This document shows, in pieces, positions 9,602 through 11,226 of a DNA stretch of 30,942 bases. The notes below the pieces were generated by a model. It saw nothing but the letters and a program-made list of their open reading frames with translations. It was not told the DNA's origin and did no database searches. The stretch is from a virus, in the IMG/VR virus record IMGVR_UViG_3300042924_001078, positions 1-30,942 of that record. One strand, given 5' to 3'. Numbering within the stretch: position 1 is the stretch's first letter; every line of letters begins with the position of its first letter. The translations under genes and the position numbers were made by a program.

Positions 9602-9729
9602 TCAAGCCTTCCCCGTAAGTGTTTAATCTCAATCTCAAGCCGCACTCGACGCTCAACGTCATCATCACACAAGTCTTTCTCTGCGACCTTTTCAGCAATG
9701 GCGTAGCAGATAAAGTTCTGGTCAATCAT
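9598..9729 (-). CDS. Small hypothetical protein
   Basis: This 43-residue protein (MIDQNFICYAIAEKVAEKDL, then CDDDVERRVRLEIEIKHLRG and a short end) overlaps the methyltransferase stop and the ninB start by ATGA junctions, so it is translated by coupling. It is predicted to be almost entirely helical, with a heptad-like second half (VERRVRLEIEIKHL) that could dimerise. No family is recognised. Confidence 0.65.
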   Translation of the reverse strand: MIDQNFICYAIAEKVAEKDLCDDDVERRVRLEIEIKHLRGRLE

Positions 9730-10579
9730 TTGACTGTTGCTCCTGATAAAATCCTGAATACTGTTGCTGCCACGATTGGAACCTGTCCGTTTCCAATGGC
9801 TTTAAGTCTGTCCACCCTAGCGGCCACCCCATCAGCCACTCGACCCACAGGGGATTCAATGCCCCAGATATGTCCGACACGCTCTGCGAAAGCATGATCT
9901 GTTTCCCCTTCTCTTGCCTCCGCTGGATCGCTCCCGAACCAAGATTGCCCCTGTCCCTGTTGTCGCTGGCTTGTGGTGTCGGCCATTTGCGGGAATACGC
10001 TACCGCCTCGGAAAGGTTGTGGCTGTATCCTCTCTCCAACACTTTCTCCGCTTGCATGGGGTCTGATGTTCCCTTGTGGTCGCAAGCAGTTGGAGTCGGC
10101 CAGAAGCCAGAACCTGTCTCGTTTATGGGGCGCTCCGCAGTCGGATGCTGAAACAATACACCATTCACAGTCATACCCCATCTCGGTAAGGTCACCGATG
10201 ACCATTGCAGCGCCTCGTCCCACAAGCATTGGTGAGTTTTCCACGAATGCGAATCTAGGTCGTATCTCACCGATAATTCGTGCCATGTGCTTCCACATAC
10301 CTGATCGACTGCCTTCAATTCCTGCGCCCCTTCCTGCGCTGCTGATGTCTTGGCATGGAAACCCGCCCGAAACAACGTCAACAATTCCTCGCCACGGCTT
10401 TCCGTCAAAGGTCTGAACGTCATCCCAAATCGGGAAAGGCGGGAGAATGCCGTCATTCTGTCTGGCGGCAAGTACGCAAGCTGGGTATGGTTCCCATTCA
10501 ACTGCACAGACTGTTCGCCATCCAAGTAGCCCCCCCCCAAGTATTCCTCCACCAGCGCCTGCGAAAAGAGCCAACTCAT
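9722..10579 (-). CDS. Overprinted Trp-rich protein inside the methyltransferase gene
   Basis: This 285-residue frame begins 28 nt inside the methyltransferase gene and stays open to 4 nt beyond its stop. It has its own ribosome site, AAGGA 7 nt before ATG, better spaced than chance would suggest. The product begins MSWLFSQALVEEYL and carries MTAFSRLSRFGMTF (42-55). It has two copies of a W-P-T-P-x-A-x-D motif (FWPTPTACD 159-167, KWPTPQASD 198-206) and ends with LNPLWVEWLMGWPLGWTDLK (241-260). I recall free-standing phage proteins with the same PTPxAxD and NPxWVEWLMGWPxGWT signatures, often loosely called methyltransferase-like. That suggests a real family rather than a shadow frame. Function is unknown; a partner or regulator of the methyltransferase is a guess. 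Confidence 0.6.
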   Translation of the reverse strand: MSWLFSQALVEEYLGGGYLDGEQSVQLNGNHTQLAYLPPDRMTAFSRLSRFGMTFRPLTESRGEELLTLFRAGFHAKTSAAQEGAQELKAVDQVCGSTWHELSVRYDLDSHSWKTHQCLWDEALQWSSVTLPRWGMTVNGVLFQHPTAERPINETGSGFWPTPTACDHKGTSDPMQAEKVLERGYSHNLSEAVAYSRKWPTPQASDNRDRGNLGSGAIQRRQEKGKQIMLSQSVSDISGALNPLWVEWLMGWPLGWTDLKPLETDRFQSWQQQYSGFYQEQQSND

Positions 10580-10607
10580 TTAATTTTCCTTGATTAGATT
10601 GCGTCAT
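9726..10607 (-). CDS. DNA cytosine-5 methyltransferase
   Basis: This 293-residue C5 methyltransferase transfers a methyl group from SAM to cytosine in DNA. Conserved motifs are all present: motif I LFAGAGGGILGG (14-25, SAM), motif IV GGFPCQD (81-87, nucleophile C85), motif VI FVENSP (121-126), motif VIII KRDRFWLLA (162-170) and motif X AIGNGQVP near residues 270-280. The segment after motif VIII serves as the target-recognition domain; its site cannot be read from sequence. No restriction endonuclease neighbour is seen, so it is a solitary phage methyltransferase, probably protecting phage DNA from host restriction. GAGG lies 6 nt before the ATG. Almost the whole gene also encodes a second protein in another frame (9722-10579). 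Confidence 0.94.
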   Translation of the reverse strand: MTQSNQGKLNELALFAGAGGGILGGGLLGWRTVCAVEWEPYPACVLAARQNDGILPPFPIWDDVQTFDGKPWRGIVDVVSGGFPCQDISSAGRGAGIEGSRSGMWKHMARIIGEIRPRFAFVENSPMLVGRGAAMVIGDLTEMGYDCEWCIVSASDCGAPHKRDRFWLLADSNCLRPQGNIRPHASGESVGERIQPQPFRGGSVFPQMADTTSQRQQGQGQSWFGSDPAEAREGETDHAFAERVGHIWGIESPVGRVADGVAARVDRLKAIGNGQVPIVAATVFRILSGATVK

Positions 10608-10999
10608 TTCACGCCTCGATAGAAAACGTGATCACTGATCTTCGCCACCCGCTGCCCTGTGTGCGCCCAGCCAGGGTTCACTCGCGTTGCGTGATAGTGC
10701 GTTGCCTCGCCTACTATCGGTGCCGATCTGCCTTCGTACACTGCCCTTGCAATCAACTGGGCTACTCGCCAGGACACATCATCTTCCGGCTGGTCACTCT
10801 TGCCGTCACAGTAGAAACTGAACTGGCACTGGTATCTATCCTCGCCACCATCGTAGACAACTGAACAGGCGTCATCAGGGTATCGAGGATCATGGACACG
10901 GTTAATGACCACCTGAGCAACAGCGTACTGTCCAGCAATAGGCTCGCCCCTAGCCTCGAAATATATCGCAGTAGCTATACACATGATTTCGTACAGCAT
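10604..10999 (-). CDS. SleB-type cell-wall hydrolase
   Basis: This 131-residue protein resembles the hydrolase domain of SleB/CwlJ (Hydrolase_2). Supporting segments are AIYFEARGE with the probable catalytic glutamate, AVAQVVINRV, CSVVY, CQFSFYCDG, ATHYHA and VNPGWA. These enzymes cleave peptidoglycan, probably as lytic transglycosylases. ATG at 10997-10999 shares a base with the upstream stop (TGATG); a GTG one codon earlier is possible. The end overlaps the methyltransferase start (ATGA). No signal peptide is evident. Its position in the middle operon, away from the holin/endolysin pair, is odd; it could remodel the wall early, assist lysis, or be carried in the virion. Confidence 0.85.
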   Translation of the reverse strand: MLYEIMCIATAIYFEARGEPIAGQYAVAQVVINRVHDPRYPDDACSVVYDGGEDRYQCQFSFYCDGKSDQPEDDVSWRVAQLIARAVYEGRSAPIVGEATHYHATRVNPGWAHTGQRVAKISDHVFYRGVK

Positions 11000-11226
11000 C
11001 ACAGACCCACCCTTTCTGACAGAGACTTTTTATCGGTCGCCATGTAGTAGCAAGCGAAGTTCTTTCCGTTCTTTCTCACCGTCACGGTTTCAATTTTGTG
11101 ACCCTGCTCTTTTAGCTCAAATATCCTTGCGCCAAGCCTGAAGCTGCCAAAAAGACTTAGGGCGTCGATAGGTGTCAGTGTGCTGCCTGATTGCAGGTGT
11201 CTAAGTATTTGTACGTTCTGGCTCAT
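10999..11226 (-). CDS. Small helix-turn-helix protein (HTH_39-like)
   Basis: This 75-residue winged-helix protein has the pattern ILRHLQSGSTLTPIDALSLF, then G-S-F-R-L-GARIFELKEQGHKIET, then a beta wing (VTVRKNGKNFACYYM). This matches the small phage HTH_39-type domain seen next to replication genes. It probably binds DNA. A GGGG-rich ribosome site lies 6 nt upstream and overlaps the TAG stop of the preceding gene. Its last base is the first base of the hydrolase ATG. A role in regulating the middle operon or in replication is possible, not shown. Confidence 0.8.
   Translation of the reverse strand: MSQNVQILRHLQSGSTLTPIDALSLFGSFRLGARIFELKEQGHKIETVTVRKNGKNFACYYMATDKKSLSERVGL

Follow-up and report, generated by a model that had tools for sequence, protein, structure and literature searches.

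The window analysed here, a virus record of 30,942 bases with NinB- and NinG-like, terminase, portal, and replication-initiator genes, contains two overlapping genes that, with a probability of about 85%, encode the two chains of one C5 cytosine DNA methyltransferase. The product of the second gene (beta) is very probably, judging from sequence comparisons, the motif IX chain of the enzyme whose remaining motifs are encoded by the first (alpha). Codon-level selection, the division of the motifs between the two frames, a series of differently organised relatives, the AlphaFold model of alpha, and the precedent of M.EcoHK31I all speak for this reading. In our view, the locus belongs to a known two-chain kind, whose phage branch is very large and largely unrecognised.

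Both full-length frames that an earlier note had recognised in the bare sequence are present exactly as claimed (Table 1), and so are a Shine-Dalgarno-like motif for each of them and the ordered repeats of beta, which comprise two WPTP copies and NPLWVEWLMGWPLGWTDLK. The two genes share 854 nt of DNA. The start of alpha lies 28 nt upstream of that of beta in the window; among the relatives, an in-frame alpha start codon is found 4 nt upstream of the beta ATG in 148 of 207 loci, typically in the form ATGAATGAGTTGGC. With starts 4 nt apart, both chains can thus begin almost together, which would suit production in equal amounts. An endolysin-like gene (10604-11002, minus strand) shares the 4 nt at its 3' end with the alpha start, which suggests translational coupling into alpha.

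Table 1. Features of the methyltransferase locus (positions in the window).
Feature	Position	Strand	Basis or remark
alpha, C5 cytosine methyltransferase large-domain chain, motifs I-VIII and X	9726..10607	-	293 aa, ATG, stop included
beta, second chain with motif IX segment, +1 frame	9722..10579	-	285 aa, ATG, stop included
GAGG, Shine-Dalgarno-like, 6 nt upstream of alpha ATG	10614..10617	-	sequence
AAGGA, Shine-Dalgarno-like, 7 nt upstream of beta ATG, within alpha	10587..10591	-	sequence
alpha motif IV (GGFPCQDIS.., catalytic Cys)	10338..10367	-	alignment A3, invariant columns G81-S89
alpha motif VIII (GAPHKRDRFWL)	10104..10136	-	alignment A3
beta WPTPTACD, first copy	10079..10102	-	translation, alignment A1
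beta WPTPQASD, second copy	9962..9985	-	translation, alignment A1
beta motif IX-like segment LNPLWVEWLMGWPLGWTD	9806..9859	-	strongest constraint within beta; matches VIII-X segment of single-chain relatives
alpha motif X (KAIGNGQVP)	9777..9803	-	alignment A3, invariant G272 N273 G274 Q275

The membership of alpha in PF00145 is evident from the profile match (E 5e-29; 102 bits against a cut-off of 22), which covers only residues 13-175, and from the presence of motifs I, IV (PCQ), VI (EN), VIII, and X; the protein also matches phrog_363 (E 1e-64). Its catalytic motifs are invariant or nearly so across the 47 alphas of alignment A3. Motif IX is absent from alpha, which carries motifs I-VIII and X. 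The score against TIGR00675 (dcm) remains below the whole-protein cut-off (75.9 versus 100.65 bits) and the match ends at residue 170, as expected for a chain that lacks motif IX. The AlphaFold model of alpha is ordered at residues 10-175 and about 275-288 but disordered at residues 177-274, and aligns with M.HhaI over residues 3-290 (Z 19.1, 189 residues, rmsd 2.9).

Beta matches a PHROG labelled 'DNA methyltransferase' (phrog_1008; E 1.7e-25) but nothing in Pfam or NCBIfam in profile searches. A tblastn search with beta retrieved 45 phage records, with 29-48% identity among near full-length matches, and at least 600 viral stretches as well as 80 bacterial or archaeal contigs contain beta. 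Its frame relative to alpha is the same (+1) in all 336 loci where both were located. In the window, beta runs through 285 codons without a stop, whereas permutation of the synonymous codons of alpha creates 4.9 stops on average, in line with the impression of the earlier note that beta is unlike a random shadow frame; among 200 shuffles of a locus identical to the window (L097), none left the frame open.

Because the earlier searches had selected largely on beta, the test was repeated on loci picked by alpha alone. In this window-family set, which comprises 74 distinct loci found with the alpha of the window as query, the core of the beta frame is free of stops in 64 loci, with a mean of 0.16 stops per locus versus 5.06 expected from synonymous codon permutation and 16.5 in the third frame. 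More distant relatives were collected with the methyltransferases of a Paenibacillus phage (set B) and a Synechococcus phage (set C) as queries; here, nearly all beta-frame stops fall before codon 60 or so or past the motif NPxxVExxMGxPxxWT, and the frame stays open for as many as 457 codons, at 43% GC. The overlap of L333 (480-1820) is longer than any other seen: beta has 447 open codons, counted from its first start, within an alpha of 524 codons, again at 43% GC. The open beta frame is absent from one relative at 44% identity (L252). A member of the window family (L069, 3001-3872) has one TAG halfway through beta and an intact alpha, which reflects either decay of beta or an error in the sequence. 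Among five loci with a short alpha in the first ORF search, L355 proved intact on inspection; the other four (L347, L364, L374, and L381) have a stop in alpha and were left out of the interpretation.

Selection on beta is also evident at the synonymous sites of alpha. In sets B and C, the third-base identity at fourfold sites is 0.57-0.62 under the beta overlap but only 0.289 (shuffled, 0.275) and 0.337 (0.274) in the N-terminal part of alpha outside beta. Likewise, the similarity in the beta frame exceeds the null by z-values of 66 to 96 where beta overlaps and is at or near the null in the same N-terminal part; the z-values are inflated because the null ignores shared ancestry, which does not affect the internal control. 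As an external control, 40 ordinary C5 methyltransferases contain 13.0 alternative-frame stops versus 15.6 expected, and not one of them has the frame open. In a lead-frame test, where one protein was held fixed while the codons of the other were shuffled, excess conservation is larger for alpha over motifs I-VIII and X, whereas beta leads at NPxWVEWLMGWPxGWT (5.29 versus 1.81 for alpha). Both chains are weakly conserved between motifs VIII and IX, as would be the pattern of a target-recognition region. The overlap between alpha and beta is almost certainly real and under selection, and the overprinted pair proposed in the earlier note withstood both checks named there beforehand, namely that for stops or start loss in homologous methyltransferase loci and that for constraint at synonymous sites.

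The role of beta is best seen in relatives that encode the same motifs in other arrangements. Gp45 of Propionibacterium phage PFR1 is a single ORF with motifs I-VIII followed by LPTPTARD, FVEWMMGLPDG, and LGNGAVPQQA; PF00145 spans this protein from profile position 20 to 312 of 324, the beta-like part included, and phrog_1008 matches both beta and PFR1 residues 185-342. The Mycobacterium phages Druantia, RedBird, and Dylan have the enzyme split in two: motif VIII is the last motif of the first ORF, and the PTP and WMMG motifs and motif X belong to another ORF, read in the +1 frame. A search with the PFR1 protein returned single-chain (L504-L509, L511, and L512), split two-ORF (L510 and L515), and overprinted loci (L516-L529). 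Wherever the motifs were found, all three types share the order IV-VIII-PTP-IX-X on the DNA; therefore, the conserved segment of beta sits at the position of motif IX. A profile comparison of beta with the single-chain relatives (hhalign) aligned only the 17 columns of motif IX (probability 74%, E 2.7e-5), and none with ordinary C5 methyltransferases gave a match; the IX-X tail of the single-chain relatives is only weakly similar to the tails of the ordinary enzymes. Searches of PDB sequences with the beta profile returned no significant match, and a PDB fold search with the low-confidence AlphaFold model of beta alone (pLDDT 57, lowest in residues 1-100) found none; the poor solo prediction is compatible with a beta that folds only within a complex.

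A 722-aa single chain from an Actinomycetota MAG (L421, 2909-5074) has several PTP repeats and WVEWLMGWPVGWT ahead of motif X and may represent a tandem fusion of an overprinted pair. The actinophage pairs L337, L338, L339, L086, and L087 each consist of two genes labelled 'DNA methylase' or 'DNA methyltransferase'; these encode the parts of a split enzyme, with the catalytic one first and motifs IX-X second.

Two-chain enzymes of this class have precedents. Both M.EcoHK31I and M.EaeI are two-polypeptide C5 methyltransferases that recognise YGGCCR; the small gene of M.EcoHK31I is nested in the large gene in another frame and encodes a chain of 176 aa. The larger polypeptide of M.EcoHK31I comprises motifs I-VIII and X and the predicted target-recognition domain, the smaller one only motif IX, whereas in M.AquI motifs IX-X reside in the smaller chain (PMC3404938). 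The window locus resembles M.EcoHK31I in this described motif partition, with I-VIII and X in alpha and IX in beta; by its position and sequence relative to the single-chain relatives, with which it is collinear, beta carries motif IX as the small chain does, and its gene likewise lies in a different (+1) frame of the larger gene. It differs in that beta covers 854 of the 882 nt of alpha, is 285 aa long, and is phage-borne, and in that the recognition region is in the beta frame of the single-chain and split relatives rather than in the large chain as predicted for M.EcoHK31I. With M.AquI, it shares the two chains with the catalytic half first, but motif X of the window (KAIGNGQVP) is in alpha; the split enzymes of Druantia, RedBird, and Dylan resemble M.AquI. 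PFR1 gp45 has the motif order and the beta-like PTP/IX segment in common with the window, but all of its motifs are in one frame. A prophage-encoded orphan C5 methyltransferase has been predicted to share its target with M.EaeI (PMC4722110). Another out-of-frame gene inside a phage DNA methylase gene is the ShiLan domain, a hidden HNH endonuclease encoded by an inserted homing element (PMC11855218); by contrast, the locus described here has no insertion, and its hidden product would be part of the enzyme itself.

We infer that alpha forms the large catalytic domain (motifs I-VIII, then X), with residues 177-274 serving only as a linker, and that beta, presumably made from a +1-frame start of its own, contributes the part of the small domain that holds motif IX and probably target recognition as well. 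Together, the chains would form a heterodimer, one active enzyme that would methylate the DNA of the phage itself, most likely allowing it to escape host restriction.

A genuine overlapping gene could also encode an independent protein, such as an anti-restriction factor, an inhibitor, or a regulator. The N-terminal 100 residues of beta, which lie over motifs I-V of alpha, would be consistent with this, as they are conserved beyond the alpha-given null in the window family and nothing comparable was seen in the single-chain enzymes; however, beta is always accompanied by alpha, alpha is without motif IX, and the beta-like segment of the single-chain relatives sits between motifs VIII and X, which makes an independent role improbable. 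Of the functions suggested in the earlier note, that of a partner agrees with these results, whereas there is no need to invoke an inhibitor or unrelated antirestriction factor, since beta supplies the motif IX region. A second function in addition to the first is conceivable but rather doubtful: if overprinting went both ways, the motif IX region would have originated as ordinary methyltransferase sequence in the beta frame, with the alpha linker written over it later, and the N-terminal 100 residues of beta would have been newly written over motifs I-V of alpha and have acquired their own function, for example by binding a host restriction factor. Such a locus would combine a methyltransferase with a second anti-defence protein.

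It is very unlikely that a single enzyme is produced by ribosomal frameshifting instead of from two starts. Although the split ORFs of the actinophages resemble a frameshifted single chain, motif X of the window is back in the alpha frame, so that two opposite shifts would be needed; moreover, beta has its own conserved start, with the in-frame alpha start 4 nt upstream in the 148 loci mentioned above. Least probable of all is a non-coding shadow of the conserved codons and composition of alpha, which is refuted by the codon tests and the internal and external controls. Part of the resemblance is indeed of this kind, as ordinary methyltransferases reach 28-41 bits on the beta profile over positions 40-160, but a shadow should not be free of stops where 5-13 are expected, nor should synonymous sites be frozen only under beta; the constraint on beta peaks at motif IX, where that on alpha is weak, and the pattern is absent from all 40 controls.

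A free-standing family of beta proteins, which the earlier note had suggested for other phages, is not supported: in each of the 426 fetched loci with a beta up to motif IX, alpha is present on the same DNA or chain. The overlap is in the +1 frame in 419 of these loci (by at least 400 nt in 410), five were scored as single chains, and two have another frame relation. In Pseudomonas phage phPA-G and Vibrio phage 1.291, beta alone is annotated and an open, unannotated alpha frame lies underneath; the annotation of Acinetobacter phage ABMM1, whose two starts lie 4 nt apart, gives alpha alone. Hundreds of 'orphan' C5 methyltransferases of phages and prophages appear to be half annotated, with gene callers reporting either alpha or beta but not both. 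A single ORF, if cloned, would probably yield no active enzyme, a point of importance to surveys of phage modification and anti-restriction. In the open-access literature, we found no report of phage-wide overprinted C5 methyltransferases. The loci form a rare natural series (single chain, split, and overprinted) for studying both the origin of overlapping genes and the freedom to change that is left to a protein whose DNA also encodes another.

The 28-41 bit matches of ordinary methyltransferases to the beta profile imply that some 'second methyltransferase' annotations are codon shadows. In Paenibacillus phage Shelly, gp56 carries the annotation 'g55 internal gene'. In Streptococcus phage P0092 (L342, 1460-1879), the C5 methyltransferase is of the ordinary kind, and the ORF in its +1 frame bears the label of a second 'DNA methyltransferase'.
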